The notes under the pieces: model-generated
The model's database searches: none
Seen by the model: only the letters and a program-made list of their open reading frames with translations
Told to the model about the DNA's origin: nothing
Source: Lantana camara
Lineage: Eukaryota > Streptophyta > Magnoliopsida > Lamiales > Verbenaceae
Direction: 5' to 3'
DNA length: 64,000 bases
NCBI GenBank assembly: GCA_037501455.1
Contig: CM074855.1
Location: forward strand, 34,133,001-34,197,000
Part shown: piece by piece, positions 1 through 49,728 of the stretch
Numbering within the stretch: position 1 is the stretch's first letter
Layout of the letters: every line of letters starts with the position of its first letter
Translations under genes and position numbers: made by a program

Positions 1-1842
1 CATTTCAGCCCCAAACCCCCCTTGAAACCGAGCCAATCCTCCTCTCTCTCTCCCAAAACTGATCGGTACAAGGGAGCAAGGAAGAAGAAGAAGCCTTTTG
101 GCCAACCTTATGTTTTGAGCTCAAATCTTCACCCAAGCTTCTCAAATTTGAAAGGTAAGTTCATGGTTGTCATCTTCACTCTCTCTTCTCTCTTTTATGT
201 GTTCTTGAGTTCATTTCCATGGTTGGTTGTTGAGTTTGGGCAAGCATGTGAATAGTATATGTTGGAAGATTTGATTGATTCCTACTCCTTTCATGTTTCC
301 TTGAGATTTGTTGTTGATAGTATGCTCCTAGGACTTGTTTCTTAGCAATTGTTGCTTTTCCTTGCTTGGTAGTTGGAGTTTGGGGGGTTGGGTTTTGTTT
401 TGGGGTTGCTGAGTTACTGTTGAGCCGTCTGCATTTTTCTGTACCGTGACACGGGCGTGTCACCTTTTGAGTTCATTGCTCGTTTTCTGTACCGAGACAC
501 GGGGGTGTCTCGGCTTGCCTTGTTTCGGTGACACGGGCATGTCACTTCCGGGTTCTGTTGTTCGTGTTTCTGTACTGAGACACGGGGGTGTCTCAGCTTG
601 CCCTTCCCGGGGGACACGGGCGTGTCTCCTAGGAACTCTAGTTTCGTTCGTTTTGCTTCCTTTCCGTTATTTCTTGTTGTTTCTTCTTGCCTCGTTTATG
701 ATATATGTCCGATTATGCTTTGAATGCTCATAAATGATCTAAATGTGGACTCATTTCATATCATTTGCATCATAACCATACATACACATGTACCGAGCGT
801 CAATGTAGTTCATATTGAGTCTAAGAGTATTCCTCGTTGTTTGACTTGTTCAGAGGTTCTTCCTGTTGAGGACGAGCTTGCTCCGTAGGTGCCCGGTTTC
901 CTCTTTTGACTCCGCTTCGTTCGTTGCCAAGGTGAGGTTTTGTTCTTTTAGTTACTCGACCTACGACCCTATTTGATTTGAAACCTCGCATGTGAATACG
1001 TATAGTATATGGTAAATAAGTGTATGATACTTATGTTGCGGGATTTGTCCCATCTGTTATAATAGTTTGAAAACGTTTTGTATAAGTATATAAGTTATTT
1101 TGCTTTCGTTTGAAAAGTTTAGTTTGGTGCAAGTGTGTGTGTGTGTGTAAGCGAGATGTGGCTTTGAAAGATAAGCTTTGAGATATGTTTGTGTGACTTT
1201 TGTGAGCTGTTTGGGCCCCGGAGTGTGGTATGGTAATCTCGGGACGACCGAGGGGTCGCCGAGCTCTCCCATCAACACCTTCGTTTGAGAGTTTCACCCA
1301 ACCTTGGGAGTTTGAGGAAGGGTGTTTCTCTTGAGCCGGCGGAGGCAACCGCCGAAGGTTTCAAGGAAGTAATTAAACCTTGTCTCGTCTGTGTATGTGG
1401 ATAGTTAAGGCCGATCAACCCTTCTATCAACCGGTGTTGGGGATGGATTCTGATTTGTTTTGCTTTGCTTTGTTCTTCGTATTTGGAAGTTGGGGATGTG
1501 TGTGACTCATACTCGCCGAGTTGGTTAAGCTTTATATGATCTACGGAACGAGAGCGGATTCTTAATTCACCTAAAACTTGGAGTCTTGTTTTGCCCTTTC
1601 CCCACTTTTGAAATGTATATGTGATCTTGGGAGATATGTTTAGCTTGAGAATTGCTTTAATTGCTTCCGCTACTCTGATTTTAATTCTTGCAGTTCTTGA
1701 GGGTCTAGGCCGCCTAGCGAGGGTGTGAGTTTTGTGTGTCTCCCGTTCGCTATGGTCTGATACGGGTGCGGACTTCCATTTCGATACTCGTGTTGGACCT
1801 TAGTGCGGGGGATGTGGCACCCTTCGCTCTGGGGGTGTTACA
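1..1842 (+). repeat. 5' LTR, partial (first ~600 bp outside window)
   Basis: Base 1 corresponds to base 7149 of the 3' LTR and the match runs to the terminal GTTACA at 1842. It carries the palindrome array (446-629), a short GT run (1134-1148), donor-like GTAAGT at 155 and GGTGAGG at 931, and the closing CGCTATGG ... TTAGTGCGGGG box. Relative to the 3' LTR it lacks exactly one 34-bp segment inside the palindrome array. Confidence 0.95.
446..629 (+). repeat. palindrome array in 5' LTR (five dyads)
   Basis: Five hairpins with a 4-nt GGGG or GGGC loop are centred at 454.5, 502.5, 536.5, 585.5 and 619.5. Spacings are 48, 34, 49 and 34 bp. Stems are GTGACAC/GTGTCAC or GAGACAC/GTGTCTC, so the variable base pair changes on both sides. 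The first hairpin looks like a fusion of hairpins 1 and 2 of the 3' LTR. Confidence 0.85.
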
Positions 1843-1866: not shown

Positions 1867-2051
1867 GGTTGCAAAACCAGAGCTCTGGAGTCGTGTTGAG
1901 TCTGTCTAGGTCGTTCGGTATAGGAGTATGTGACTATTTACATTCATTCACATCTCTACTTGACTTATTTGCTTAAATTGGTGATAATTGACTTCATGAT
2001 CATGAACTGAACTCCATGCATCGATATCTTCTTGATTTGTGTATTTTCAGG

Positions 2052-3698
2052 ATGCCTCCAAGAAGGAGAGCAGATAGGGAACAGACTCCTGATCTTAATC
2101 AACCCCCTCCACAAGCACCTCCACCTCCTCCGATGAATGCTGAGAATATTGTGCAGGCCCTTCTGAACCAGCTTCAGCAGAACCAAAGGAATAATCCACC
2201 ATGGGAAGGACAAGGTGGGCAAGTAACTCCGGCCTTTAAGGAGTTCAGAAACAACAATCCGCCGAAGTGGTATGGAGGAGATGACATCCAAGCCGAGGAG
2301 TGGTTGTCGGAGGTTACGGGAATTTGGGAAATTTTCCCCGCTCCTTCGCATGAGAAAGCTGTTTGTACGGCCCGGTTTGTTCAAGGTCCCGCATCCAATT
2401 GGCTCAAAGCTATGAGAGCTCGATTGGAGAGGAATGGAGAGGAATTCGATTGGGAAAGCTTTGTGAGAGAGTTTCGTCATAAGTATGTTCCATCAAGCGC
2501 TCGTGAGAGAAGGTTGCAACAATTTACAGAACTGAGACAAGGGAATCGCTCGGTTGAAGAGTATATTCTGGAATTTGAGAGACTTACACCGTACGCCCCG
2601 CACATCACCAATGATGATACTCAGAAGGCCCGGAACTTTATTCATGGTTTAAGATATGAAGTCCAGGATGCTCTTAAGGCGGCTACAGTGGATACATGGG
2701 AGAAGGCTACGAGGAAGGCAATTAAGGTGGAAGCCAACAACAAGAGATTGAGGCCGACTTACTCTTCGGGCCAAGGTTCGAGCTCTAATTTGGGGAAGAG
2801 GCCTGTATCCTATAGTGGGCCTCCGGTCTTCAAACCCCAAGGTCCTACTACTTCAGTCAAGAAAGCTCGACCTCTGGTACCGACGGCACTAGCTTTACCG
2901 GCCCCGATTCAGTGTAGTTATTGCAAGGGTCCCAACCACACCGAGGAGAATTGCCGGAAGAAATTGAGAAGATGTTATAAATGTGGAGAGCCTGGCCATA
3001 TGATCAGTACTTGTCCTCAAGTGAGAGCACCTCAGCCTCGAGTTCCTCCGCCGTTGAATGTGATGCCTCCGAGAGCACCGATCCAAGCGAGAGCCTATGC
3101 TTTGGAGGGCGAGGAAGAGAATGTAGAGGTGGATGCCAATGCCGTTGTTGAAGGTACTATCTACATTCATGGCATTCCATTGCATGCATTGTTTGATCCG
3201 GGAGTAACGCATTCATTTATTGCTTCCCGGCTTGCTTCTACTCTTCCCTTGCCTGTTGCTTGCCTAGATGATTCCTTTATTGTTTCTTCTCCCCTTGGTG
3301 CTACTTTGTCTATGAATTGTGTTTACCGAGGTTGTCCGGTGGTTGTGGAAGATCATGAGTATCCGGCAGATCTGATCAAGATGCCTATCAAGAAGTATGG
3401 GGTAATTCTGGGAATGGACTGGTTGTACCGTTACCGAGCCATGATGGATTGTTTTGCTAAGAGGGTGACTTTGGGTTCTACGGTCTTTGCGGGTCAGAGG
3501 TTGAAGACCTGCCCGTTTATTTCCTTCATGGAAGCAAGTAGACTGTTTCGGGACGGTGCGACGGGCTATGTGGCCTACCTTTTGAATAAGCCAAAGGATC
3601 AGGCCAAGCTCGAAGAGACGGAGATCGTGAAGGAATTCCCGATGTGTTTCCGGAGAACTTGGGATCTTTACCTCCGGATCGGGACGTCGAGTTTGTGA
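2052..3698 (+). pseudogene. gag-pro: Gag-protease polyprotein of Tekay-like element, frameshifted at the 3' end
   Basis: The reading frame is 548 codons long from the ATG at 2052, which directly follows an acceptor-like TTTTCAG. A proline-rich N-terminus is followed by a retrotransposon Gag domain (about residues 80-185), two CCHC zinc knuckles (about 288-301 and 307-320, both C-x2-C-x4-H-x4-C), and a retropepsin-like domain (about 365-520). The active-site motif reads D-P-G-V (codons near 3189) where the family has D-S/T-G-A/S; the downstream ILGMDW motif is intact. After about 3636 the protein leaves the conserved frame and stops at 3698, while the conserved sequence continues in the frame starting near 3644. 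In this clade gag and pol are normally one frame, so a one-base loss is the simplest reading. Gag packages the RNA; the protease is probably inactive. Confidence 0.9.
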
Positions 3699-6265
3699 TA
3701 GATCTCTATCCCGGAGCAGAACCGTATGCGAAATCTCCCTATAGGATGGCTCCAGCCGAGTTGAAGGAGTTGAAGATGCAATTGGACGAGCTCTTAGAGT
3801 GTGGTTACATTCGCCCGAGCACTTCTCCGTGGGGTGCTCCGGTCCTGTTTGTAAAGAAGAAAGACTGGACTTTGCGTATGTGTATTGACTACCGTGAGCT
3901 GAACCGGTTAACGGTTAAGAACAAATACCCGCTCCCTCACATTGAAGAGTTGTTCGACCTCCTGCAAGGTTCGAGGGTTTATTCCAAGTTGGACTTAAGG
4001 CAAGGGTATTACCAGTTGCGTATCCGGGAGGGAGATATACCGAAGACGGGTTTCAACACGAGATATGGGCATTTTGAGTTTGTGGTCATGCCTTTTGGTC
4101 TGACCAATGCCCCAGCCGCGTTTATGGATATGATGCACCGAATATTCCGGCCTTACCTCGATAAATTCGTGGTCATCTTTATAGATGATATTCTGGTGTA
4201 TTCGAGGTCCGAAGAAGAGCACGCGCGGCATTTGAGCATTGTCTTGTCTACACTTCGGGAACACAGATTGTTCGCCAAGTTCAGTAAGTGCGAGTTCTGG
4301 TTGGATCGAGTTTCCTTTTTGGGTCACTTCATTTCAGGGAATGGTATAGAAGTGGATCCGGCGAAGATCGAAACGGTGATGCTTTGGAAACCACCGAAGA
4401 ATGCCTCGGAAGTGAGAAGTTTTCTCGGGTTGGCAGGATATTATAGACGCTTTGTGAAAGATTTCTCGAAGATTGCTTCCCCGTTGACCCGGTTAACTAA
4501 GAAAGAGGTGAAGTTTGAGTGGGATGAGGCGTGTGAGAAGAGTTTCCAAACCCTTAAGGAGAGGTTGACTACTGCACCGGTTTTAACCCTACCCGAAGGT
4601 TCGGAAGGCTACTCAGTTTACACCGATGCTTCGAAGGAAGGTCTCGGTTGTGTGTTAATGCAGAATGGTAAGGTTGTAGCCTACGCCTCAAGGAAGTTAA
4701 AGGATCATGAGAAGAACTATCCCACTCATGACTTGGAACTCGCCGCAGTGGTGTTTGCTTTGATGAAATGGCGGCATTACCTTTATGGAATCACTTTTGA
4801 AGTGTTCACCGACCACCAGAGTCTTAAGTATCTGTTTACCCAGAAGGATTTGAACGTAAGACAGAGGAGATGGATGGAGACACTCGAGGATTATAATTGT
4901 AAGATTCAGTACCATCCGGGTAAAGCCAATGTGGTGGCGGATGCTTTGAGTAGGAAAGTGAATGTTTCAGGTTTGGAAGCAGGTTCTAGTAGACAGGGTT
5001 CAGTGGTTCTGGTTTCAGAGGCTCGATTGGCTAATATTTCGGTTCAGCCGGTTTTAAAGCAGAGATTGATAGAAGCTCAATCTATGGATCCAGAGATTCA
5101 GAAATTGATAGCGAAGTCAAGGATTGATCCTGAAACCGAGTTTGGATTTGATGATTCAGGATTGTTCAGGTTGAAGGCTCGGGTTTGTGTTCCGAAAGAT
5201 TTTAAGCAGTTGGTACTTGATGAAGCCCACAAGTCAGCGTATGCAGTACATCCCGGTACCACCAAAATGTACAAGGATCTAAGGACTTTATACTGGTGGA
5301 ACGGCATGAAGAGAGACGTTGCTAACTATGTTAGGAGATGTCAAACATGCCAAGTGGTGAAAGCAGAACACCAGAAACCGGGAGGAACTCTCCAACCACT
5401 TCCAATACCCGAGTGGAAGTGGGAGCAAGTGACAATGGACTTCGTGTCCGGCTGGCCAAGGACCAAAGGAGGTTCCGATGGAATTTGGGTGATTATTGAT
5501 CGGTTGACGAAGTCGGCGCATTTTCTTAAGGTGAAGACGTCCGATAAGGTTCCTAAGTTGCCCCGGTTATATCGGAAGGAGATTGTTAGATTGCATGGTA
5601 CCCCGATCAGCATTGTTTCAGATAGAGATCCTCGGTTCACATCCAGTTTTTGGCAGGAATTACAGAAGTGTTTGGGGACGAAGCTCCACTTCAGTACTGC
5701 ATTTCACCTACAGACGGATGGCCAGTCAGAAAGGCTAATAAGGTATCTTGAGGACATGCTTCGTGCTTGTGCCTTAGATTATCAGGATTCGTGGGATGAA
5801 CAGTTGGATTTGATTGAATATGCCTACAACAACAGCTTTCAGTCTTCTATTGGGATGGCACCATATGAGGCGTTATATGGAAGGAAATGTAGATCCCCTC
5901 TCTTTTGGGATATTGATGAATGGAGGTGGACCAAAGATGGAAAGCTCGAGAGAGCTAAGAAACCTAAGGAAATTCAGGATACCATCAAGAGGGTGAAAGT
6001 GATTAAACAGAGGTTGAAAGTGGCTCAAGACCGGCAAAAGAGTTATGCAGATAGGAGAAGACGACCCTTAGAGTTCGAGAAAGGAGATAAGGTCTTTTTA
6101 AAGGCATCTCCTAGAAAAGGGTATGCTCGGATTGGTAAAGGCGGGAAGCTTAACCCTCGCTATTTAGGCCCCTATAAGATCCTTGATCGAGTTGGGAAAG
6201 TAGCTTACAAACTTGATTTACCGCCGAGTTTGACCGGGATTCACAATGTGTTCCATGTCTCGTAG
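3644..6265 (+). pseudogene. pol: Pol: reverse transcriptase, RNase H, integrase
   Basis: The open frame has 873 codons; its first ATG is only the first methionine after the frameshift. The reverse transcriptase carries the catalytic FIDD box (near 4178) and the [14 protein letters not shown] segment. RNase H has its acidic residues in TDAS (near 4621), DLELAA, TDHQS and ADALSR. Integrase has an HHCC zinc finger (HKSAYAVH near 5228 and CQTC near 5341) and a D, D, E core in TMDF, SDRDPRF and QSERL (5437-5740), then a GPY-type module (NPRYLGPYK near 6150). The frame closes at TAG (6263-6265), a position where the protein clearly continues in the same frame, so this stop separates integrase from its chromodomain. 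Confidence 0.93.
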
Positions 6266-6514
6266 CTTCGGAAACATTACCCCGATGAGTCTTCTATTCT
6301 TCCAGTTGAGAAAGTTCAGTTAGAGCCGGATTTGACTTTTAAGAAGTATCCAGTTCAGGTGTTGGATCGAAAGATGCAAGAGTTGAGGAATAGACAGATC
6401 CCTCTTGTGAAAGTCTTGTGGCGTGATCAAGAATCCGAAGAAGCTACTTGGGAGACCGAGGATAAGATGAAACAGTTGTATCCGGATCTTTTCAAGACCT
6501 CGCCTCGGACCTGA
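6266..6514 (+). pseudogene. chromodomain tail of integrase, cut off by an in-frame stop
   Basis: This continues in frame with pol after the TAG at 6263. About 83 codons end at 6514 and include a chromodomain-like segment with the pattern LVKVLWRDQ ... ATWE. In chromoviruses this domain guides integration toward particular chromatin. Without readthrough the integrase would lack it. Confidence 0.85.
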
Positions 6515-6542: not shown

Positions 6543-9024
6543 TGTAACATCCCGACTGATCAGACTTTTCAGGTAACCTCTTATGTGCGCTATTTAGTAG
6601 TTCTTTAAGTGATTATGTGATATTAATTGTCAACGTGGGTCATTTGAAGTTATTTGAACTTAATTGCTTTGGTATGGACTTGTTTAACTTGAGCGTTTAA
6701 CTTTCCTTCACCTTGTATTTTGCTCGTTTTAGATTCGTAATTAATTCTGATTTTTGTGAATTCGCGTTATGTGTTGATAATATGCCTTATGGACTCGTTT
6801 ATATGCTCGTTATATGTTTTGGTATTTGTTTTGGTTGCCTTTTTGGGTTCGTTTTGGAGACGGGACCTAAAGGAGGCTAAAGAGCACTTAGTGCACCTTG
6901 GGTTCCGAGACACGTATCTTGAGCTCGGGAATTCAGATTCGAATTCCGTCACCTCCATTGAACTCGTTTCGACGATTCGGGTTTAATGGAACAAACCTCA
7001 CATTTTTCTAAGCTCATTAAGACCTTCGTATTTCAACCGTAACGAGCCCCTTTTTGTTTGGAAGTTATCCTTTGACCTAATAGACCTTGTGGACCCCACC
7101 TTAACCCAACCAAGCCCTTAACCTTGGAATACACTTGAGTTAGCTAACCATTTCAGCCCCAAACCCCCCTTGAAACCGAGCCAATCCTCCTCTCTCTCTC
7201 CCAAAACTGATCGGTACAAGGGAGCAAGGAAGAAGAAGAAGCCTTTTGGCCAACCTTATGTTTTGAGCTCAAATCTTCACCCAAGCTTCTCAAATTTGAA
7301 AGGTAAGTTCATGGTTGTCATCTTCACTCTCTCTTCTCTCTTTTATGTGTTCTTGAGTTCATTTCCATGGTTGGTTGTTGAGTTTGGGCAAGCATGTGAA
7401 TAGTATATGTTGGAAGATTTGATTGATTCCTACTCCTTTCATGTTTCCTTGAGATTTGTTGTTGATAGTATGCTCCTAGGACTTGTTTCTTAGCAATTGT
7501 TGCTTTTCCTTGCTTGGTAGTTGGAGTTTGGGGGGTTGGGTTTTGTTTTGGGGTTGCTGAGTTACTGTTGAGCCGTCTGCGTTTTTCTGTACCGTGACAC
7601 GGGGGTGTCACGGTTTGCCCTTTGTTGGTGACACGGGCGTGTCACCTTTTGAGTTCATTGTTCGTTTTCTGTACCGAGACACGGGGGTGTCTCGGCTTGC
7701 CTTGTTTCGGTGACACGGGCATGTCACCTCCGGGTTCTGTTGTTCGTGTTTCTGTACTGAGACACGGGGGTGTCTCAGCTTGCCCTTCCCGGGGGACACG
7801 GGCGTGTCTCCTAGGAACTCTAGTTTCGTTCGTTTTGCTTCCTTTCCGTTATTTCTTGTTGTTTCTTCTTGCCTCGTTTATGATATATGTCCGATTATGC
7901 TTTGAATGCTCATAAATGATCTAAATGTGGACTCATTTCATATCATTTGCATCATAACCATACATACACATGTACCGAGTGTCAATGTGGTTCATATTGA
8001 GTCTAAGAGTATTCCTCGTTGTTTGACTTGTTCAGAGGTTCTTCCTGTTGAGGACGAGCTTGCTCCGTAGGTGCCCGGTTTCCTCTTTTGACTCCGCTTC
8101 GTTCGTTGCCAAGGTGAGGTTTTGTTCTTTTAGTTACTCGACCTACGACCCTATTTGATTTGAAACCTCGCATGTGAATACGTATAGTATATGGTAAATA
8201 AGTGTATGATACTTATGTTGCGGGATTTGCCCCATCTGTTATAAGAGTTTGAAAACGTTTTGTATAAGTATATAAGTTATTTTGCTTTCGTTTGAAAAGT
8301 TTAGTTTGGTGCAAGTGTGTGTGTGTGTGTAAGCGAGATGTGGCTTTGAAAGATAAGCTTTGAGATATGTTTGTGTGACTTTTGTGAGCTGTTTGGGCCC
8401 CGGAGTGTGGTATGGTAATCTCGGGACGACCGAGGGGTCGCCGAGCTCTCCCATCAACACCTCCATTTGAGAGTTTCACCCAACCTTGGGAGTTTGAGGA
8501 AGGGTGTTTCTCTTGAGCCGGCGGAGGCAACCGCCGAAGGTTTCAAGGAAGTAATTAAACCTTGTCTCGTCTGTATATGTGGATAGTTAGGGCCGATCAA
8601 CCCTTCTATCAACCGGTGTTGGGGATGGATTCTGATTTGTTTTGCTTTGCTTTGTTCTTCGTATTTGGAAGTTGGGGATGTGTGTGACTCGTACTCGCCG
8701 AGTTGGTTAAGCTTTATATGATCTACGGAACGAGAGCGGATTCTTAATTCACCTAAAACTTGGAGTCTTGTTTTGCCCTTTCCCCACTTTTGAAATGTAT
8801 ATGTGATCTTGGGAGATATGTTTAGCTTGAGAATTGCTTTAATTGCTTCCGCTACTCTGATTTTAATTCTTGCAGTTCTTGAGGGTCTAGGCCGCCTAGC
8901 GAGGGTGTGAGTTTTGTGTGTCTCCCGTTCGCTATGGTCTGATACGGGTGCGGACTTCCATTTCGATACTCGTGTTGGACCTTAGTGCGGGGGATGTGGC
9001 ACCCTTCGCTCTGGGGGTGTTACA
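6543..9024 (+). repeat. 3' LTR, complete (2482 bp)
   Basis: It runs from TGTAACATCCCGACTG to GGGTGTTACA with short terminal inverted repeats TGTAACA/TGTTACA. Near identity to 1-1842 implies a recent insertion. It contains six dyads (7592-7811) and the shared 3'-terminal LTR box. Confidence 0.95.
7592..7811 (+). repeat. palindrome array in 3' LTR (six dyads in three pairs)
   Basis: Hairpin centres are 7602.5, 7636.5, 7684.5, 7718.5, 7767.5 and 7801.5; spacings are 34, 48, 34, 49 and 34. Loops alternate GGGG, GGGC, GGGG, GGGC, GGGG, GGGC. Stems include CCGTGACAC/GTGTCACGG, GGTGACAC/GTGTCACC, CCGAGACAC/GTGTCTCGG and CTGAGACAC/GTGTCTCAG. The fourth has one mismatch and the sixth one G-T pair. 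Confidence 0.9.
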
Positions 9025-23407: not shown

Positions 23408-24361
23408 TGTAACGCCCCGATTTTCAGACAGTCAGGTACGCTCGACACGTGTGAGTTTCGAGCGTTAGGATCTTATTTTATTATTTTTATTTATTCAATT
23501 TATAAGTGTTATATTAATTTTATAAATTGTGATCCAACCTGATTACGTGAAAATATATGAAATGTATGCCAACTTGGGAATTATGTTCCATATTGAAGTT
23601 ATTGTTACGTTAATTAATTGCCGAATGTATCTTAATTGCTTAATTGTCCTTAATTGTCCATTTACATAAATTAGAGGACCAAATTGCATGATAACCATTG
23701 AAGACTAGATTGATCATTTCCCAAACTTGATATACTCAATTGCATGATTTATGGAGTTGGAGGATTACATCATAAATACCACATATTTCCCCCAAGTGTA
23801 TCGATATATGCATCTCTTCTACAACCATCATCTTCATTTCATGCCAATCATCTCTTTTTGCTTTCATTCTCCACCGAACCAAAACCTCCAAAAAGGGAAG
23901 AGGAGATTTCATCAAGTTTATCAAGAGAGATATGGTTTTGGGAGCTCATTCATCATGCTAGCTTCATCATCTTCTTCTTCTATTTTCTTTCAAGGTAGAG
24001 ATGGAGATATATGATTTCTTGAATTAACATGTGAAGCTAGGGTTGAGATTCCTTTCATTCCATGAGTTGATATGATGCATATATTGTGATGTGGGGAGTG
24101 ATTTATGTATGTATCGCTTGAAATCATGAAGATTGGAGCTTGATTGCTCATAGGATTCTTATAGGTTTAATTGATGAATTTGGCATGATCAAGCATGAAA
24201 CAAGTGTTGGTATTGCGTTTTATTGCACTTTAAGCATGTATATATGTTTCCTTCTATGAATTATAATATATGGAATGGATTATGAGTGTTTTGGGAGCTT
24301 TGGGAGCTTGGTTCGTAGCTCCCCTGTTCTTCTCCCCTGTTTTCTGAACCTTCTGTGTAAC

Positions 24362-24563
24362 GGGAACGGCCGTTCCCATCCCCTTTACAATTGGGGAACA
24401 GCCGTTCCCATTATTTGAATAATGTGTCAGGCGGCGAGGACGGGAACGCCCGTTCCCACTTTGTCGCACAGACGGGAACGACCGTTCCCATCTTCGGGGA
24501 GCCGTTTCGGGACTGGGGAACGGCCCTTCCCATTTTGTACTAAAGCCTGGAACGGCCGTTCCC
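24362..24563 (+). repeat. palindrome array in LARD A 5' LTR (six dyads in three pairs)
   Basis: 16-bp dyads lie at 24362-24377 (GGGAACGGCCGTTCCC, perfect), 24394-24409, 24442-24457, 24474-24489, 24516-24531 and 24548-24563. Centre spacings are 32, 48, 32, 42 and 32 bp. Most deviations affect one or two central positions. Confidence 0.93.
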
Positions 24564-25055
24564 AAGCCACTGGAAGTGCAGAAAGTTTCTGCACAAAATT
24601 ACAATTTTAGCCCCTCGTTCCAATGGCTTATTTGACCCCAAATTGCTATTATATGATTGATTATATGTTGAAACAACATGTTATCATGCTACATTGTGTA
24701 TTGCTCGATGTCTCGTGTATGATCATGCCGTGCGTCAGTATATGAATAATATGCTTGAATTGTGGTCTCATGCACGTACATTGTCCCGTTTCTTGTCCAG
24801 TTGTTCTCCAGGGCGAAGATTGTGGATCATGAGCACGTTCACGCATTCACGAGTCGTGTGTCGCCTGTCAGGTGAGGTTTAATTTCTAGTTATATAGAAC
24901 CCATATGACCTTTACGTGGGTTTTGGCCAAAGGTATTTATATTTATAATTTCATGAAAGTACTTATCATTTCAAGCATGTTATTGTTCATAAATCAAGCA
25001 AGTAGGTCATGTTAGTATGCACAAATCAAGCATGTCATGTCATCAAGCAAGTCAT

Positions 25056-25350
25056 GTGTTCTCCTGGCCAGGTTCTCCTTAGGGAGGGCGCTGGACCGGT
25101 CCTCGGGCCGGTGATTGTCCGTCCAATCACAGGAAGAACAATACCATATCGTGTTCGTGTGTTCTCTTGGCCAGGTTCTCCTTAGGGAGGGCGCTGGACC
25201 GGTTTTAGAGCCGGTGGTTGTCCGTCCAACCACAAGAAGAACAAAGGCCTATCGTGTGCATGTGTTCTCCTGGCCAGGTTCTCCTTAGAGAGGGCGCTGG
25301 GCTGGTCTTAGAGTCGGTGGTTGTCCGTCCAACCACAGGAGAAACAACCC
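25056..25350 (+). repeat. three tandem 103-bp repeats with covarying hairpins
   Basis: Units start GTGTTCTC at 25056, 25159 and 25262. Each holds a hairpin with loop TCCGTC: GTGATTG/CAATCAC (25111-25130) in unit 1 and GTGGTTG/CAACCAC in units 2 (25214-25233) and 3 (25317-25336). Units 1 and 2 also have ACCGG ... CCGGT. Confidence 0.9.
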
Positions 25351-26073
25351 ATCGTGTTACAAGCAAGCCATGTAGTGATTGCATGATCTCCATTCCATGA
25401 ACGTGTTCTATGACTACACTATTGCATGATTGCAGGATAATTGAGTTGCGTGATCACCTAATAATTAACAAGCAAGCAAGTATGTTTATCGATTGCAAGA
25501 AAAGAACAAGAACTTAATATTGATAGTTGTATTCTCGGGCGAAGTTAGATTATTATTGAACTTGTATATTTACATTTTATAAACCTTCACCCGAGAATAT
25601 GACTTGCATGTTATCTGCGCTAATATATATTTAAACCCCTCACTCGGTCTTCACAGACTGACACCTCCACCTTTCAGGTTACTGCAGGTGCGTGCTAGGC
25701 GGGAGTTGAGTCGAGTTGAGTCCAGTTCATGTAGTCATGTCATCCGTGGTTCGTGTATTTATTTAGTATGAAATTGTAATTATTGTTATTGCTAAATTGG
25801 AGATGATAATGTATTGACATGATAAGTTAGAATATATTTGTTTGGAAAACGAGAAAAGACATGAATGATAAATGGAAATAAGTGATAGTGTTTACATTAT
25901 GCTTCCGCTTTATCTTATTGCACGTTGTAGTTATCCCGCCTAGCTTGTCGAGTATTGCATTGTCACCCGTTCGCTATAGGTTGGTTCATGTACGGATTGA
26001 CCATTTCGTATGTGAATTGACCTATAGTGCGGGGGTGTGGCACCTCCACGTGTCCGGGGTGCTACATCTTAGG

Positions 26074-26085
26074 TGGTATCAGAGC
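26074..26085 (+). other. LARD A primer binding site
   Basis: TGGTATCAGAGC lies 8 bp after the LTR end, same type and spacing as in the Tekay-like element. Confidence 0.85.
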
Positions 26086-27481: not shown

Positions 27482-27492
27482 AAGGGGAAGAG
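27482..27492 (+). other. internal polypurine tract candidate (central PPT)
   Basis: TTCTTAAGGGGAAGAG nearly repeats the 3' PPT context CTTAAGGGGGAGAG at 29170. LARD B has the same at 46180-46190. It could prime a second plus-strand start or mark an old junction. Confidence 0.5.
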
Positions 27493-28834: not shown

Positions 28835-28940
28835 TGAGAGACGGGGATTCTCTCAGGGTTGTCAGGAGACGGGGCTCTCTTGTTACTTGCTCGAGAGACG
28901 GGGTTCTCTCGTTAATTGTTTGAGAGACGGGGCACTCTCA
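28835..28940 (+). repeat. hairpin cluster GAGAGACGGGG...CTCTC
   Basis: Hairpins TGAGAGA/TCTCTCA (28835-28855), CGAGAGA/TCTCTCG (28892-28911) and TGAGAG/CTCTCA (28921-28940) lie about 250-350 bp before the 3' LTR, with a weaker one near 28864-28880. The closing pair differs but stays paired. Confidence 0.8.
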
Positions 28941-29171
28941 GTATTTTCAACTACTTGTCAACTTGTTTTAGTGGAAGGTTAGATTTTCTTTCGAGTGATT
29001 AGACTCCGGAAGTTGAGGGTCGTGATCTCAACCATTGGAAGACTTTGTGGAATGAAGATCTCTTTCAAACTAATCCCTGACGGGGAGTAGCTAACCCACG
29101 TGGGATGAACATGTAAGAGCTAATTAAAATTCCAGGAATTCAGGACTTGGAATCCGAGGACGGATTCTCTT

Positions 29172-29184
29172 AAGGGGGAGAGAG
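29172..29184 (+). other. LARD A polypurine tract
   Basis: AAGGGGGAGAGAG immediately precedes the 3' LTR at 29186. Confidence 0.85.
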
Positions 29185-29185
29185 T

Positions 29186-31844
29186 TGTAACGCCCCGATT
29201 TTCAGACAGTCAGGTACGCTCGACACGTGTGAGTTTCGAGCGTTAGGATCTTATTTTATTATTTTTATTTATTCAATTTATAAGTGTTATATTAATTTTA
29301 TAAATTATGATCCAACCTGATTACGCGAAAATATATGAAATGTATGCCAACTTGGGAATTATGTTGCATATTGAAGTTATTGTTACGTGAATTAATTACC
29401 GAATGTATCTTAATTGCTTAATTGTCCTTAATTGTCCATTTACATAAATTAGAGGACCAAATTGCATGATAACCATTGAAGACTAGATTGATCATTTCCC
29501 AAACTTGATATACTCAATTACATGATTTATGGAGTTGGAGGATTGCATCATAAATACCACATATTTCCCCCAAGTGTATCGATATATGCATCTCTTCTAC
29601 AACCATCATCTTCATTTCATGCCAATCATCTCTTTTTGCTTTCATCCTCCACCGAACCAAAACCTCCAAAAAGGGAAGAGGAGATTTCATCAAGTTTATC
29701 AAGAGAGATATGGTTTTGGGAGCTCATTCATCATGCTAGCTTCATCATCTTCTTCTTCTATTTTCTTTCAAGGTAGAGATGGAGATATATGATTTCTTGA
29801 ATTAACATGTGCAGCTAGGGTTGAGATTCCTTTCATTCCATGAGTTGATAAGATGCATATATTGTGATGTGGGGAGTGATTTATGTATGTATCGCTTGAA
29901 ATCATGAAGATTGGAGCTTGATTGCTCATAGGATTCTTATAGGTTTAATTGATGAATTTGACATGATCAAGCATGAAACAAGTGTTGGTATTGCGTTTTA
30001 TTGCACTTTAAGCATGTATATATGTTTCCTTCTATGAATTATAATATATGGAATGGATTATGAGTGTTTTGGGAGCTTTGGGAGCTTGGTTCGTAGCTTC
30101 CCTGTTCTTCTCCCCTGTTTTCTGAACCTTCTGTGTAACGGGAACGGCCGTTCCCATCCCCTTTGCAATTGGGGAACAGCCGTTCCCATTATTTGAATAA
30201 TGTGTCAGGCGGCGAGGACGGGAACGCCCGTTCCCACTTTATCTCACAGACGGGAACGACCGTTCCCATCTTCAGGGAGCCACTTCTGGACTGGGGAACG
30301 ACCCTTCCCATTTTGTACTAAAGCCTGGAACGGCCGTTCCCAAGCCACTGGAAGTGCAGAAAGTTTCTGCACAAAATTACAATTTTAGCCCCTCGTTCCA
30401 ATGGCTTATTTGACCCCAAATTGCTATTATATGATTGATTATATGTTGAAACAACATGTTATCATGCTACATTGTGTATTGCTCGATGTCTCGTGTATGA
30501 TCATGCCGTGCGTCAGTATATAAATAATATGCTTGAATTGTGGTCTCATGCACGTACATTGTCCCGTTTCTTGTCCAGTTGTTCTCCAGGGCGGAGATTA
30601 TGGATCATGAGCACGTTCACGCATTCACGAGTCGTGTGTCGCCTGTCAGGTGAGGTTTAATTTCTAGTTATATAGAACCCATATGACCTTTACGTGGGTT
30701 TTGGCCAAAGGTATTTATATTTATAATTTCATCAAAGTACTTATCATTTCAAGCATGTTATTGTTCATAAATCAAGCAAGTAGGTCATGTTAGTATGCAC
30801 AAATCAAGCATGTCATGTCATCAAGCAAGTCATGTGTTCTCCTGGCCAGGTTCTCCTTAGGGAGGGCGCTGGACCGGTCCTCGGGCCGGTGATTGTCCGT
30901 CCAATCACAGGAAGAACAATACCGTATCGTGTTCGTGTGTTCTCTTGGCCAGGTTCTCCTTAGGGAGGGCGCTGGACCGGTTTTAGAGCCGGTGGTTGTC
31001 CGTCCAACCACAAGAAGAACAAAGGCCTATCGTGTGCATGTGTTCTCCTGGCCAGGTTCTCCTTAGAGAGGGCGCTGGGCTGGTCTTAGAGCCGGTGGTT
31101 GTCCGTCCAACCACAGGAGAAACAACCCATCGTGTTACAAGCAAGCCATGTAGTGATTGCATGATCTCCATTCCATGAACGTGTTATATGACTACACTAT
31201 TGCATGATTGCAGGATAATTGAGTTGCGTGATCACCTAATAATTAACAAGCAAGCAAGTATGTTTATCGATTGCAAGAAAAGAACAAGAACTTAATATTG
31301 ATAGTTGTATTCTCGGGCGAAGTTAGATTATTATTGAACTTGTATATTTACCTTTTATAAACCTTCACCCGAGAATATGACTTGCATGTTATCTGCGCTA
31401 ATATATATTTAAACCCCTCACTCGGTCTTCACAGACTGACACCTCCACCTTTCAGGTTACTGCAGGTGCGTGCTAGGCGGGAGTTGAGTCGAGTTGAGTC
31501 CAGTTCATGTAGTCATGTCATCCGTGGTTCGTGTATTTATTTAGTATGAAATTGTAATTATTGTTATTGCTAAATTGGAGATGATAATGTATTGACATGA
31601 TAAGTTAGAATATATTTGTTTGGAAAACGAGAAAAGACATGAATGATAAATGGAAATAAGTGATAGTGTTTACATTATGCTTCCGCTTTATCTTATTGCA
31701 CGTTGTAGTTATCCCGCCTAGCTTGTCGAGTATTGCATTGTCACCCGTTCGCTATAGGTTGGTTCATGTACGGATTGGCCATTTCGTATGTGAATTGACC
31801 TATAGTGCGGGGGTGTGGCACCTCCACGTGTCCGGGGTGCTACA
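29186..31844 (+). repeat. LARD A 3' LTR (2659 bp)
   Basis: Same length as the 5' LTR at a constant offset of 5778, with only scattered substitutions by eye, so the insertion is recent. All structural motifs recur. Confidence 0.95.
30140..30341 (+). repeat. palindrome array in LARD A 3' LTR
   Basis: Six dyads at the same relative positions as in the 5' LTR. A few substitutions fall inside (the fifth reads GGGAACGACCCTTCCC) and between dyads; spacing is unchanged. Confidence 0.92.
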
Positions 31845-34901: not shown

Positions 34902-37622
34902 TGTAGCACTCGGAACACCGAGATGCCACACCCCCGCACTATAGCTCAGTCCACATACGAAATGGATGATCCATACATGAACTAAGACTATAGCGAACGG
35001 GTGACAAAAGAAAATAAACCTCTAGCTAGGCGGGACTAACCCTCATTTAATACGAACATGCATAATAAATAAAACGGAAGCATAAGGTGCACGCATTTCA
35101 TTATCACCCTTCAAGTTCAACTTCATTACTTACATATACAATTCAACCCTTCCAAAACCAAAGCTTAACATACATAAGTACCAAAAGCTATAACAATCTA
35201 TATATGCTTCATTAATGTACAAGAAAATGAGGAAGACAAGTGCCAGACCCAAAATAAAGACCAACTCCCGCCTAGCACTAAACCTGCAAAACTGAAAATG
35301 TGAGGTGTCAGTCTATGAAAGACTGAGTGAGGGGTTTAAATAGATATTAGCGCAAATAACATGCAGGTCATAATCTCGGGTAAGGTTTTAATAAAATAAA
35401 CAATATAGGTTCAAGATGTAATACACTTTGCCCGAGATTACAACTATCAATATTAAACACTTTAATAACTTTCATGCTTTCAATCAGTGGCCCTGGCGAG
35501 TGAAGGCAATTCTCCAACCTTACACCAATAGTGAACATTACATGCTTGTTTAATTATCATGTGATCATGCAATTCAATTATAGTGCACACGTATCAATTT
35601 CACGAACTCTTTTACTCTGGGTGATGGTGGGTTTGCAAGACCCTAACCATCCATGCTACGTACGTCAGGAGCATGACTCCCACGTACTGGATTCCTTCCT
35701 CCATCAAAACTCCTGGTGGATTCAAGGGTCATCCCAAAGTTGTGAGGATAGTGCAAGAGTTACACGCCAACCCTTGCTTCCTCGGTTGACTCAATACACT
35801 ACCCTTAGGCCCAAAGTGAACATGCTACTCGCCACTACACTATCACAATTCAATCACGATACATGCATTGCTTTGCATGAACATGACTTGCTTGCTAATC
35901 ACTTGAAAGTTTAGAAATGATTATATATAAATATATATACCTTTTTGGCCTAAAACTTCACATAAGGGTTATATGGGTTCTATAATAACTAGCAATTAAA
36001 CCTCAGCTGTGCCGACAATTAACAAGGATACAACTATGAAGCGTGCTCCTCGTCAACGGGAAGAAGATCTGTGTAAAAAGGGACAAGTGTTCGTGAGACA
36101 CGACTCGCATGAACCATTTACGACGCACGGCAAAGTCATGATCAGTAAGTCATTCAATAACACTTAAGGAATGTCAAATAAAAGCATAATTATTAATTAA
36201 ACAAGTATATATATCATATAATTCACATATGGATCCAAGAGAGTTAAAGGAATGTAATAAGAGAGGTTTTGGTGAAGTTTGGTAAAAACGGACAATTTTA
36301 GGAAACGTACATGCTGAGGTAAAACTGGAACATCTTTAATTATAGAAGTGGGAATTGAGTTTTGTTTATTGGGAATGAAACTAGACACAAAGACCTTTCG
36401 GATGATATATGGCTCGTTTTCTAGTTCAAAGTGAGGAGAAAATGGCATAAGCTTGAAGTTAAGCGAGTGCAGTTTGTCGGGATAATAGCGACACCTAAAA
36501 GAATTGATCATATCTCACAATATAAAAATGATATTGAGGTGATTACAATTGGAGGTTATTTTAGACTTCAATAGATTTCCAACGGTTCAAAAATCAGGTC
36601 AATCAGAGTTTTTATGAGGGAGAAACTCCCGTTTGAAAAATGGTCTGAAAGCAGAAATGGGAGTGTGAAAACCTCCTGTAACAGTGCTAAACGGGCTTTT
36701 GGTGCCTGAACTAGAAAGCCACACGGCCGTTTGGGAGTATTCTGCCCGAAAAAACAGGGGAACAAACAGGGGAGTCGTGGGAGATGGCTCCCAAACCATA
36801 TATACACCAAATCAATGCAAGAAATCAACTCAAATCTATTAGATAACATGTATATAACTCATATACTTCATTTATAGATCAAATAGACCATCAATATGCA
36901 TCAATCAATAAGAAACCATCATTTAAAACCCATAAAAATCATGTAATCTAATCTCCCATGTAAACCAAGATTTCATGCAAGCTATGAAGTGTAATACTCC
37001 TAAACATGCTTCTAATCACTTGTAAACAAGTTATCACATAATAGTCCCCAAACCCTACTCCACCTATGATCCATGAATTCATGCTAATTCAAAATATACC
37101 TTGAGATGAGAAAGAAATGGATGAAATGATGAGATGAAGATGATGCTTCCACTTATAAATTCTTCCTTGGATTATAGCTTGAAATTTGAGATGAAATCTT
37201 CCCTTCCCTTCCTTGGTGATTTGATCGGTTTTTAGCGTGTGAGTGTGTGTGCTCTTGATGAAAATGTGAGGAATGTAAGGATAGAGATGATATGTATATG
37301 TTATATTATAAAACCTCAACTATAATGTATGACTCACCCCTTTTTGCAATTAAGTCCCTCCAATGTTTAAACTAATGCAAACAAGTTTCATTCCATGGAA
37401 AATGATCAAATAACTCCGATTCATTTCATGCAATCAAGTCCACAGTTTTAAGAAAGGATCAAGTAAGGTCATATATGAACAATTACTCACATTATCAATT
37501 AATTTATATAAATCTCATATTAACAATAATTTCATATAAGTTTATGAAAACTTAATGCATATAATGTTATGAAAATTATAATTTAACATATAATGATTGA
37601 ATGGAAAAACCGGGGCGTTACA
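34902..37622 (-). repeat. solo LTR (2721 bp), TSD TATAC
   Basis: On the minus strand it starts TGTAACGCCCCGG and ends GAGTGCTACA. TATAC flanks it at 34897-34901 and 37623-37627, so it arose by LTR-LTR recombination. It shares the TCAGTCT/AGACTGA hairpin (35308-35326), the AATCTCGGG hairpin, the acceptor-like TTTTTACACAG (36070) with the GACGAGGAGC block, and a degenerate dyad pair near 36694 and 36726. Confidence 0.93.
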
Positions 37623-42665: not shown

Positions 42666-42795
42666 ATCCAAGGCCGTGGATATTTTCAAAAGGGGAGATC
42701 CACGGCCGTGGATCTGGGGACAAAAATGTCCCTGCTGCTGGACTCCTATCCACGGTCGTGGATTTGATCAAAGCCAAAAATCCACGCCCGTGGAT
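42666..42795 (-). repeat. palindrome array in solo LTR D (four dyads in two pairs)
   Basis: 16-bp dyads lie at 42666-42681, 42698-42713 (ATCCACGGCCGTGGAT, perfect), 42748-42763 and 42780-42795. Centre spacings are 32, 50 and 32 bp. The sequence differs from the LARD A and Tekay-like dyads. Confidence 0.93.
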
Positions 42796-42918: not shown

Positions 42919-44739
42919 TGTAACGCCCCGATTTCCAGTTATCCAGGTACGCACGACACGTGTGATTTTTCGAGAGTTAGGATTTATTTAATTCTTTCGT
43001 TTATTAAATTCTTATATTTCATGAAAATTATATGAATTATATTTCAATGTGTTCACGTGAAAATATATGAAATTCGTGACAATTTGAGAAATATTGCATG
43101 ATTTGGAAATGATTGTTACGTGAAATAATTGTTGAACGTGATTTAATTGCCAAATTGTGCCTACATGATCTTTCTTTTAAATTCAAGGACCTAATTGCAT
43201 GATTATTCATTAGACTAAAGTGATCAATTTTCCATGAAAGAGAACTTAGTTGCATTACTTAATAATTTGAAGGACTTAAATGCAAATTTAGACATTTCAT
43301 CAAATTAAAGAGATGAATCATGCAATCTTCTTCACCCTTCTACACATTTCATACCAACCATTCTCATCTCCATCTCTCTCTCGGTCTAACACCAAAGAAG
43401 GAAAGAAAAGTGGGATTTCACCATCATCATCAAGCTATTTTCCATCAAAATTTCATACCATGAAGTTCAAGCATCTCATCTCATCTCTTTTTCCTCTTTC
43501 TTAAGTTATTCACCGGGGTGGGGATTACTGATCAATGAGCACCTTCACGCATCCTTGAGTTGTTTGTCGCTTGTTAGGTGAGGTTTAATTTCTAGTTACA
43601 TAGAACCTATACAACACTTATGTGAGATTTCGGCCAAAAGGTATTTATATCTATAATTTCCAAGAAATTTACTCATGATTACAAGCGAGCCATGTTCATG
43701 AAAAGCAAGCCATGTATCGTGCATGTTTTGGCGAGTAAGTATGATTGTTCACTTTGGGCCGTTAGTGTATGAGCCAACCGGGAAAGCATAGGGCTGACGG
43801 GTAACTCTGTACTCCCCTCATCATGTGGGATCACCTCTGAATCCTCCAGGAGGTTTGGTGGAGGAAGAAATCCGGTGCATGGGAGTCATGTTCCTGACAT
43901 ACACCATGTCGTGGATGGTGAAGGCTCGCAACCTTCCCATCATTGGAGGGAGAAGGAGACTGGGGACGGGTCCGGCACCACGGGCTGTCCTCAGGTTACT
44001 GTATTGATTGCACTTATTGACTGTATTGATTGAATACACTACCACACTACTACACTGTAACTGAATTGCATGATCACCTGTTAACTAATAAAGCAAGCAT
44101 GGATTGTTTACTTTTGGTGTAAGGTTGGAGATTTGTCCTCACTCGCCGGGCCACGTATCGCATGAAGTGAATTTAATGAATTGTCAAATTTGATAGTCGT
44201 ATTCTCAGGCGAAGAATATTCCATTCTTGAACTTATATTAGTTTCCTTTCTAAAACTTTACCCGAGTCTATGACTTTCATGATAATTGCGCTAATATTCA
44301 GTTATGCCCTCACTCAGTCTTCATAGACTGACGCCTCCAACTTTCAGGTTCTTGCAGGTACATGCTAGGCGGGAACCGAGTCGAGTCCAGTCTTTGTATT
44401 CGAGTCGTGCACGGTTCATTTATTTATTGCTGCATATGAACTATTGTTATTGTTATTCATTACGTATTTTGGAGATGAAAATGTATTGATATATGGACAT
44501 AGTTGAAAATAGCATGCTATCGATGTTGGTATTTGATATTGAACATATTATGCTAATACTTTATTTTTGACGAATTATGAAGCGATTTTGTGGTTTGGGG
44601 TTAGTCCCGCCTAGCTAGTTGTCATTTTATTTTATTGTCTCCGGTTCGCTATAGTTTAGCTCATGTATGGGTCGTCCATCTCATATGTGGATTGAGCTAT
44701 AGTGCGGGGATGTGGCATCTTTGCGCTTCGGGTGTTACA
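42919..44739 (+). repeat. LARD B 5' LTR (1821 bp)
   Basis: Starts TGTAACGCCCCGATTTCCAG and ends CGGGTGTTACA. It lacks the palindrome array; the upstream CTCTTTCTTAAG joins almost directly to the ATTCACCGGGGTGGGG block that in LARD A follows the array. It keeps GGTGAGG (43577), the perfect hairpin TCAGTCT-TCAT-AGACTGA (44314-44331), CTTTCAG (44347) and the CTATAG terminal box. Confidence 0.94.
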
Positions 44740-47206: not shown

Positions 47207-49728
47207 TGTAACGCCCCGGTTCCAGATGAACAGGTAAGCACGCCACGTGTGAGATTTTGAGTGTAGGATTTATTTTAAATCTTTAATTTTATATTTTTCC
47301 TACATGACTTCATATATTTTTATAAAATTCATGATATATTATTTATGTGAATTATATGATTTCATATCATTGGAAAATTATTTCATGTCACGGAAAAATA
47401 TTTGTTACGTAAAATAATTACCGGGAGTGATTTAACTACAAAAATTGTCCTTACATGTTCATTTCTTGAAAATTTGGGACTTAATTGCATAACTTTTCGA
47501 GGACTTGATTGATCATATTTCGAAACCCTACATCATTGATTGCATGACTTGAACACTTGAAGGATTAAATTACAATTTGAACATTTCACAATTTTCAAAA
47601 TGGATGAATCACGACATATATCTTCCTTGAGCTTCCTTCTTCATTTTTTTCATCCAAATCCATCGGTCCATTTGCTTCCTTCCTCACTGAACCTTAAGCC
47701 AAAAATAAAGAAGAAATTTCAACCATTTTTCATCAAGAATTTCAAGAAATAGTGCAAGATTTGAAGCGTGATCATCATCTCCATCTTACTTCTTCATTTC
47801 TTTCATTTCAAGGTGGGTACTTGCATGGCTTGATGATTTTGCTCAAGTATGGATGGGCTAGGGTTTGAGAATTTATAGCATACCTGGATTAGTTGTTGTT
47901 TGAGGCATGATTACATGATCATAACTTGGTTATAAGTATGAAATCTTGGAAATTTGAGCTTGAATGATCAAGAGAAGCATGAACTTGGAAACTTGAATTC
48001 TTAATGATTTCTCATGATTTATGTGTTTAAGTGATATATTATCATGTCTTGAACATATATGCATGTATATTACCAGAAATTATTGGTTTTATTGATCAAA
48101 CTTAGGACTTTGCTGCCTTGTTGATTTTTCCCGTAGACATCCCCTGTTTCTGCTCTGTTTTTCCAGTTGCAGAAGCTGGGAATGGCCCTTCCCGCCTTAA
48201 GGCATTATGGGAACGGTTGTTCCCACTCTTTTAAATCAAAGCAAGCTGGCGAACCTGGGAACGACAGTTCCCATTTTGGCCTGCGTGCCGGAAGGGCCGT
48301 TCCCTGCTAAGGTATACTTTTGAAATTTAAAACGTTGGCACGTTTTCGGAAGGCATGGGAACTGCCCTTCCCATTTTCAAAGGGAAGCCGGAACGGCCGT
48401 TCCCATCCGTCTGACAGAAGAAAAGCTACTGCATAAAAATTGATTTTTGGGGTTTTAATCCAATGCATTCTTTGATCCCAAATTGCTATTATATGATTGA
48501 ATACATGTCAAAACAAGATAATTTCATGCTACATTGTTCATTGCTCGTCATCTCATTGCATTTTCGCCGTTCGTCCTATTTGGTCCATTTTGAGTCATGT
48601 CTAACGTATACATGTCGTGTTTGCACAGGTCACGATGCCGTGGACGAGGAGCAGGCTCCTTAGAGCATATCCTTGTTTTATTTTGTAGCAAAGGTGAGGT
48701 TTTCTTCTAGGTACATAGAACCTTACAACCCTTATGTGATGTTTGAGCCAACCGGGAAAGCAAGGGCTGACGGGTAACTCTTGAGCTATCCTCACCTCAT
48801 TGGGATCACCCCCGAAGCCACTAGGAGATTGGTGGTGGAAGGAGTTCCGTGCGTGGGAGTCATGTTCCCGACGTACACCATGTCGTGGATAGTTGGGCCT
48901 TGCAAACCCACTATCACCCGGAGGAAGAAGGAGACTGGGGACGGGTCCGGCACCAAGGATTGTCCTCGGGTTATTGCATGTTTCAAGCATGATTATGTCT
49001 AATCGAGCACTAAATGAAATGCATGATCACGTATTGAATAATTCAAGCAAGCACGTATTGTTCACGTTGGTGTAAAGGTTGGAGAATTGCCCTCACTCGC
49101 CGGGCCACATGATTCATGAAATTGACAAGATAAAATGTTAAATCGGATAGTTGTAATTTCGGGCAAAGAACAAGCTATTCTTGAACTTTATATTTATTTC
49201 ATTTCCAAATCTTCACCCGAGACTATAACTTGCATGTGACGTGTGTTATGTATATATATATATTGCCCCTCACTCAGTCTTCGGTAGACTGATACTTCAC
49301 TTTTCAGGTACCCGGTCGTGCTAGGCGGGAGTCGAGTCAGGTCTTGCATTTCCCTGAGTCTAGCATTGTATCTTCATGTATAGAACTTTTGGGCATCTCA
49401 CGTTATGATCATTATTACTACATTTTAGATACTTGGACATGTATGTTATATAAGAGAGATGATAATGTATTGATAGTTAATGTTGGTACCTACTATGTAT
49501 ATATTTTGGTAAATATGGTACCTATACGTATTAATTGAAATGCTTCCGCTTTTAATTTCATGTCTTGGTTTTTGTATGTTGGGGAGTGTCCCGCCTAGCT
49601 CGTTATTTTCTTGATTGTCACCCCGTTCGCTATATGTTCGGTTTATGTACGGATTGTCCATTTCGTATGTGGATCGGGCTATAGTGCGGGGGATGTAGTG
49701 CCTTGGGGGTTAGGGTGCTACATCTACA
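47207..49728 (+). repeat. solo LTR C (2522 bp), TSD GTGAG
   Basis: Starts TGTAACGCCCCGGTTCCAG; GTGAG flanks it at 47202-47206 and 49729-49733. GGTGCTACA occurs at 49722 and a second TACA at 49728; the TSD places the end at 49728. Motifs in order are AAG/GTGGGT (47812), the dyad array, TTTGCACAG (48628), the GACGAGGAGC block, AAG/GTGAGG (48693), the TCAGTCT/AGACTGA hairpin (49274-49292) and TTTTCAG (49307). Confidence 0.9.
48178..48404 (+). repeat. palindrome array in solo LTR C (six dyads in three pairs)
   Basis: Dyads lie at 48178-48193, 48209-48224, 48257-48272, 48289-48304, 48357-48372 and 48389-48404, all variants of GGGAACGGCCGTTCCC. Centre spacings are 31, 48, 32, 68 and 32 bp. Confidence 0.92.

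Follow-up and report, generated by a model that had tools for sequence, protein, structure and literature searches.

The paired palindromes in the LTRs of LARD A, an element of Lantana camara, are real and strongly preserved, and they sit inside a segment of the LTR that, as splice-like sites and precise absences from related copies strongly support, behaves like an intron removed from the LTR transcript by the spliceosome. This position inside an intron was absent from the preliminary description of the same DNA. Covariation and strand bias support the view that the dyads act paired in RNA, and we propose, with a probability of roughly 0.4, that the array consists of paired RNA hairpins in a spliceosomal LTR intron, whose job would be to let full-length RNA escape splicing and/or leave the nucleus.

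Paired dyads and their preservation

The window is the whole 64,000-nucleotide stretch analysed here, and the LARD A LTRs, the dyad arrays and the coding frames of a second element, E1, lie in it as follows.

23408..26066, + strand: 5' LTR of LARD A, 98.9% identical by self-BLAST to 29186-31844; it starts with TGTAACGCCCCG and ends with TGCTACA
29186..31844, + strand: 3' LTR of LARD A, from self-BLAST, with GTAAC directly after it
24362..24563, + strand: six-dyad array of three pairs in the 5' LTR of LARD A, steps 32, 48, 32, 42 and 32
30140..30341, + strand: the same six-dyad array in the 3' LTR of LARD A, same steps
447..627, + strand: five-dyad array in the E1 5' LTR, shorter by one 34-bp unit than the array of the E1 3' LTR
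7595..7809, + strand: six-dyad array in the E1 3' LTR, steps 34, 48, 34, 49 and 34
36687..36734, - strand: single degenerate pair in a minus-strand LTR, step 32
42666..42795, - strand: four-dyad array of the atccAC type in a minus-strand LTR, steps 32, 50 and 32
48178..48404, + strand: six-dyad array of the gggaAC type, as in LARD A, in an LTR inside the element E3, steps 31, 48, 32, 68 and 32
2016..6511, + strand: E1 coding frames, with gag-protease at 2016-3698, RT, RNase H and integrase at 3644-6265 (stop) and a chromodomain at 6266-6511

The two LTRs of LARD A are offset by 5,778, and a GTAAC target-site duplication flanks the element directly upstream of the 5' LTR and directly downstream of the 3' LTR. 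A primer-binding-like TGGTATCAGAGC lies downstream of the 5' LTR, and the internal part (26067-29185) holds no ORF of at least 130 aa in the ORF list. With LTRs, primer-binding site, target-site duplication and no long frames, LARD A is a complete non-coding, non-autonomous LTR element. The host genome (1.27 Gb) contains GGGAACGGCCGTTCCC at 15,128 places, compared to 0 for the reversed control.

E1, judged by its frames, is an autonomous Ty3/gypsy element of the chromovirus type with gag, protease, RT, RNase H, integrase and chromodomain, and we take it to belong to Tekay/Del rather than to another chromovirus clade. Its Chromo domain scores above the cut-off but lies behind a stop codon; at 6263-6511, the integrase frame stops just before the chromodomain frame. 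The integrase zinc-binding domain is above the cut-off, while the integrase core rve is below it (22.2 vs 32.6). The gag relatives scored are mostly 26-36% identical, with the best in Henckelia and Primulina among the 7,997 candidates sharing most words.

Recomputing the dyad centres in the LARD A 5' LTR (24369, 24401, 24449, 24481, 24523 and 24555) confirmed the coordinates and the 32/48/32/42/32 spacing of the preliminary description, as well as the repeat of the array in the 3' LTR, where the centres run from 30147 to 30333 with identical spacings. The six dyads had been called 16-bp palindromes, but only the first is perfect, while the other five each have one mismatched pair of eight; one dyad of the 3' LTR has two. 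The same pairing had also been claimed for four other LTRs with different palindromes. Paired arrays are indeed present there, but their steps range from 31 to 34 and one of the arrays carries the palindrome class of LARD A. E1 dyads are of the type tgac/agacAC..GTgtca/t, with a step of 34 rather than 32, and the difference between the E1 LTRs (446-463 vs 7594-7645) is exactly one 34-bp dyad step, which looks like the outcome of recombination or slippage between two dyads. Dyad scans found no array in the LTR pair of E3 (42917-44744 and 50300-52148).

The comparison of dyad spacing with shuffled sequence that had been suggested earlier was run on the window and on host loci with a core-free search, which required six Watson-Crick pairs around a free centre, with G-C making up three or more of them, and used 20 shuffles. 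The window held 28 dyads against a shuffle mean of 4.0, a roughly sevenfold excess, and 7 pairs at 31-34 bp, where none of the 20 shuffles had any. Twenty host loci were taken at set positions, and the 19 readable ones (L024 is all N) gave 80 dyads compared to 15.25 shuffled, a roughly fivefold excess, and again 7 pairs at 31-34 bp, with none in any of the 20 shuffles; in both samples, the dyad and pair counts are not independent because the copies are related. An array with a 30-35-bp pair occurred in 8 of the 19 readable loci, and a ninth, L023, was doubtful and dropped. Steps were 32, 43, 32, 43, 32, 43 and 32 in L019; 33, 38, 31, 43, 32, 43 and 31 in L003; and, after a first step of 58, 32, 38, 32, 49, 32, 38 and 32 in L028. 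Across 87 pair units (69 distinct), the within-pair step was 32 (60 units), 34 (12), 31 (9) or 33 (6), a distribution in which only the spread is informative, since arrays were kept only with a 30-35-bp step, and which excludes L023 and two clusters of L017 (30-bp steps occur in both loci); no array had to be dropped for unknown orientation. Between-pair steps are variable, from 37-38 to 68 bp and more. The unit of the array is the pair of dyads. A rule of three helical turns, as originally proposed, is weakly supported: one family uses 34 bp and the gaps between pairs vary. A strict 32-bp helical rule was not upheld, with steps running from 31 to 34 and the E1 family at 34.

Dyad arms fall into the families gggaac, tgacac/agacac, atccac, cgaaac and ccaaac. 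Two families can share one array, as gggaac and atccgc do in L001 and L003, and more broadly gggaac pairs are mixed with atccac/atccgc pairs in single arrays of L001, L003 and L028, where the spacers of the atccac/atccgc type (ttttcc..ggaaaa) are self-complementary. Two paired-dyad patterns had 0 matches in viral contigs.

Comparison of related LTRs revealed that stems are the best preserved part of the array in two of three subfamilies. In subfamily 1 (n=3), stems were 0.991, loops 0.917, within-pair spacers 0.82 and between-pair spacers 0.72 identical, and subfamily 2 (n=8) gave 0.983, 0.876, 0.82 and 0.73, respectively, while flanks in both were 0.68-0.75 identical. The contrast was weaker in a third group of mixed membership (n=6), whose dyad map is less certain and in which stems were 0.895, within-pair spacers 0.919 and flanks 0.836-0.855 identical. 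Among 48 distinct dyads, 89.6% of cells were paired vs 63.9% shuffled, two-sided changes affected 76 cells vs 24.5 and covariation was 0.621 vs 0.173, with 0 of 500 shuffles reaching any of these figures, all three of which are inflated by the relatedness of the sequences. The outer four arm pairs each occur as two to four Watson-Crick types in this set, in which neither the number of pairs with a two-sided change nor that of further pair types was above shuffles. In E1, coordinated arm changes reach beyond the 16-mer (ccg..cgg and ctg..cag).

One ancestral tandem repeat had been named as what would refute a selected architecture. When single LTRs were compared internally, arms were 0.79-0.94 alike, and in 4 of 5 arrays the within-pair spacers were only 0.30-0.39 alike (0.44-0.47 at the best shift). 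Divergent spacers beside similar arms disfavour a uniform tandem repeat for LARD A, S48, L020 and L019, while E1, whose spacers are 0.67 alike, is nearer to a recent 82-bp tandem repeat. The idea of a selected architecture with changing sequence is thus supported by stems far better conserved than flanks in two of three subfamilies, by covarying arms and by differing spacers.

A probable intron around the array and its proposed losses

The apparent introns and spliced junctions in the window are as follows.

23995..24800, + strand: intron 1 in the LARD A 5' LTR, holding the array; 806 nt, CAAG/GTAGAG ... GTCCAG/TTG, supported by splice-like sites and by E3, L049 and other copies that precisely lack it
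29773..30578, + strand: intron 1 in the LARD A 3' LTR, 806 nt
7303..8035, + strand: intron 1 in the E1 3' LTR, 733 nt, AAAG/GTAAGT ... TTCAG/AGG, predicted from its sites
24872..25677, + strand: putative intron 2 in the LARD A 5' LTR, CAG/GTGAGG ... CTTTCAG/GTT, from splice-like sites only
43498..43511, + strand: spliced junction TTCTTAAG/TTATTC in the E3 5' LTR, intron 1 precisely absent
50897..50910, + strand: the same spliced junction in the E3 3' LTR

E3 is a complete element in the window, with both LTRs and TTTAT duplications at either side. Aligned to the LARD A LTR, it lacks one single block that starts with GT after AAG, ends with AG and includes the whole array, and its match to LARD A resumes at 24799, on the AG. 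L049 skips exactly the same intron, matching positions 1-587 of the LARD A LTR at 87% and the sequence past the intron at 91%. We found 155 matches to the junction pattern YAAG/TTRTTCTCCAGGG in the host genome (reversed control 0), one of which is E3's own 3' LTR. Of 26 matches fetched, 24 read as intronless junctions with widely different exon-1 ends; for the first six of these, an alignment to the LARD A LTR was made as well. The other two (L062 and L064) read as intron copies with the acceptor mutated to AAG, which brings the true number of junctions somewhat below 155. The exact E3 junction has four matches, two of them E3's own LTRs and two without a BLAST match to the E3 LTR. Among the 100 places listed, 31 neighbouring same-strand junction pairs are no more than 12 kb apart. 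In 20 of these listed pairs the distance is 4.8-5.05 kb, close to the 4,972 expected when the 806-nt intron is subtracted from the LARD A offset of 5,778. Four junction matches about 3.29 kb apart at G000:C5:68220997-68230874, and three about 4.9 kb apart at G000:C4:94210941-94220782, are arranged as in tandem LTR-internal-LTR arrays.

In many families, the array has candidate donors and acceptors on its two sides. In 37 arrays, many of them related and one (L036) misoriented in the count, the best donor scored higher on the sense strand in 29 and the best acceptor in 31, using approximate splice-site weights; the top score does not always fall on the inferred site, and the best acceptor of LARD A lies elsewhere. 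Together, the DNA displays a GT...AG segment with exon-end consensus on the transcribed strand and its precise absence from presumed RNA-derived copies, as expected of a spliceosomal intron. Absence of the splicing type at exact boundaries also suggests that the array is transcribed. A GTGAGG-type donor of putative intron 2, following CAG, TAG or AAG, recurs in LARD A, E3, L011, S48 and E1. Inside this putative intron, three head-to-tail copies of about 103 bp lie at 25052-25358 and again at 30830-31136 in the LARD A LTRs; each could, by eye, form a hairpin, and one stem pair is changed on both sides between copies (gattg/caatc vs ggttg/caacc). The E1 leader, counted from the window start, contains 36 ATGs unspliced and 6 spliced. 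A role for upstream AUGs was considered and set aside, since intron ATG counts of 16 and 14 are near the expected 11.0 and 15.4.

The 25 intronless rows, E3 included, form 20 groups at 88% identity. A midpoint-rooted tree of exon 1 plus upstream sequence was built from these and three rows with the intron (28 in all; L062 and L064 left out; long branches flagged for L048 with L050 and L065). In this tree, the intron state changes three times, as forced by well-supported (starred) branches, and three is the largest number possible with three intron rows. LARD A adjoins the intronless L049 at 100/99, L037 adjoins an intronless copy at 95/83, and six intronless rows make up one clade at 100/99. 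By counting alone, gains of the intron fit as well as losses. Two observations lead us to prefer loss: the missing block ends exactly at splice boundaries, and in more distant LTRs of the window and the loci (E1, S48, L020, L005, L013, L019 and others) the array is flanked by splice-like sites. Loss by splicing is therefore the probable polarity. If the state changes are read as losses, spliced RNA would have been retrotransposed repeatedly and some of the products would have multiplied. Lineages without the array seem to multiply, which suggests that the array is probably not required for transposition.

Probable RNA pairing and possible functions

The covarying base pairs that mark a conserved structured RNA are present in the 48 distinct dyads. 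A DNA dyad would also covary, so the case for RNA comes from place and strand bias: the centre GACC is found in 40 copies vs 2 for GGTC, and GGGG/GAGG in 36 vs 0 for CCCC/CCTC, all counted in related copies. A loop starting with G is a less clear sign of strand, as it occurs in 46 of 48 distinct dyads but would also occur in 37 of 48 read on the other strand. Arms that covary with free sequence around a strand-biased centre favour RNA over a symmetric DNA site. Dimeric sites, cruciforms and RNA hairpins had all been offered as options in the preliminary description, and of these RNA hairpins fit best. The mispair test does not separate RNA from DNA, as G.U and A.C are equally frequent among distinct dyads (6 vs 6; 23 vs 9 copies), counted with the orientation of L036 confirmed by BLAST.

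Predicted RNA fold energies are below those of shuffles (z of -3.80 for E1 and -7.51 for LARD A), as they would be for any palindrome. E1 folds mainly into local hairpins, and in the minimum-energy fold of LARD A, the dyads pair with one another rather than forming local hairpins. Local and cross pairing score equally in 34 of 43 pairs, with 7 favouring local and 2 cross pairing, and in two pairs (L019 and L034) mismatches are matched only across the pair. The cross folding of LARD A and the cross-only matches in L019 and L034 suggest that a two-state module is possible. Pairing of within-pair spacers was 0.465 vs 0.402 shuffled (0.368 to 0.509 with a sliding centre) and is clear only in the atcc family.

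Our proposed mechanism would operate in Tekay-like Ty3/gypsy elements and their non-coding relatives (LARDs), whose LTR transcript would carry the intron in its 5' part. Each 16-nt dyad would fold into a hairpin with a 6-bp stem and a 4-nt loop, and a module would consist of two hairpins spaced 31-34 nt. Splicing would take out all modules together, leaving the unspliced RNA as their only carrier, and the intron would be inherited through unspliced RNA only. The hairpins would let full-length RNA with working splice sites escape splicing and/or exit the nucleus. Copies with failed stems would lose the intron by splicing and return to the genome intronless, a process that would by itself filter the surviving intron copies for intact stems. 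Since the array seems dispensable for transposition, a job tied to the intron is the most economical, and the multiplication of an arrayless clade is as expected if the array matters only with the intron present. A related reading, in which hairpin pairs block splicing from genomic RNA, the module maintains itself and failures become the precisely intronless LTR lineages, strikes us as somewhat unlikely; if this self-preserving intron were true, each independent loss would be a natural record of one failed escape from splicing.

We also considered a packaging or dimerisation signal, in which a Gag zinc knuckle would bind G-loop hairpins, or two RNAs would pair, and the place in the intron would mark unspliced genomic RNA as in retroviral leaders. 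The array does lie downstream of an inferred splice donor, the E1 gag carries a CCHC knuckle, nearly all distinct dyads have a G-starting loop and non-coding LARD A has kept the array. In GGAG and GGUG tetraloops, the G is described as bound by retroviral NC, and paired GACG hairpins and palindromes are described for gammaretroviral signals (PMC7599994, PMC5874298). However, the many intronless, arrayless copies, with 155 junction matches and six copies in one clade, make the array seem dispensable in cis for transposition, and the alpha-retroviral L3 dimerisation hairpin is described as lying upstream of the donor. Since arrayless copies multiply, the array is apparently not strictly required in cis for encapsidation, though it may aid it. 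Packaging as the sole function is weakened by the intronless lineages, and we regard a packaging or dimerisation role as unlikely.

A DNA-level intronic enhancer, with dyads as dimeric host-factor sites 32 bp apart on one helix face that raise LTR transcription, is in our judgement improbable. Loss of such an element would be tolerated, the AC....GT core is common to the dyads of the window, 32 bp is near three helical turns, and upstream of the TATA box, Sirevirus LTRs have arrays of palindromes that share a CGG-CCG core and for which a regulatory role is proposed (PMC2829016). On the other hand, the outer four arm bases vary freely yet stay complementary, which a single dimer half-site has no need of, one family is spaced at 34 bp, and the centre sequences are strand-biased. 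Finally, it is very unlikely that the dyads are a host target or by-product without benefit to the element, either foldback templates for small RNAs, which palindrome clusters of maize Sireviruses attract (PMC10760457), or recombinogenic palindromes kept alike by gene conversion, as the E1 5' LTR, exactly one 34-bp unit shorter than the 3' LTR, might suggest, since conversion would homogenise the spacers too, yet these are 0.30-0.39 alike in 4 of 5 arrays, and conversion is not an obvious source of coordinated arm changes.

Comparison with known systems

What sets this case apart is an apparent intron in the LTR itself of abundant elements, with strongly covarying paired hairpins and three state changes in a small tree. 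If our reading is true, the genome keeps a record of whether spliced or unspliced RNA was copied, and the split between translation and replication pools would be testable from DNA alone.

The closest known arrays are the repeated motifs in the LTRs of Ty1/copia Sireviruses, which lie upstream of the TATA box and are called Sirevirus-specific (PMC2829016); Sirevirus LTR palindromes are also the subject of Bousios 2016, as cited in PMC10760457. Both systems have short LTR palindrome arrays with a core that is alike across families and outer bases that vary, and the CGG-CCG signature of Sireviruses resembles ACGGCCGT of the present dyads. Our arrays share the palindromic LTR array but not the Ty1/copia Sirevirus element, since E1 is Ty3/gypsy with a Chromo domain. 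Unlike the Sirevirus motifs, they are hosted by chromodomain Ty3/gypsy elements and lie in an inferred intron instead of upstream of the TATA box, and their fixed 31-34-bp pairing is absent from the motif account in PMC2829016.

Plant LTR retrotransposons are generally without introns according to a 2025 review, which names Ogre and EVADE as exceptions (PMC12786077), and BARE splices within its coding region, with spliced BARE copies not amplifiable from genomic DNA (PMC3735527). The literature accessible to us, mainly open-access and including PMC2832683 and PMC6317226, contained no report that we could find of an LTR-internal intron in plant chromoviruses. As in Ogre, EVADE and BARE, one element would give rise to both spliced and unspliced RNA, which makes a division between translation and copying plausible (PMC12786077, PMC3735527, PMC6317226). 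However, as these elements are described, the Ogre intron lies between reading frames and the BARE intron inside the coding part, whereas the present intron occupies the LTR itself, so that an element lacking it lacks it in both LTRs. Unlike in BARE, apparent spliced copies are found in the genome.

The proposed hairpins also recall retroviral packaging leaders, described as having tandem hairpins, G-containing tetraloops and palindromes near the major splice donor (PMC5874298, PMC7599994), but here, unlike in those leaders, many copies lack the array and at least one arrayless clade appears to have multiplied. In function, inferred in our case, a parallel would be export elements such as RTE and MTE, structured RNAs described as letting full-length retroelement RNA exit the nucleus (PMC12786077).
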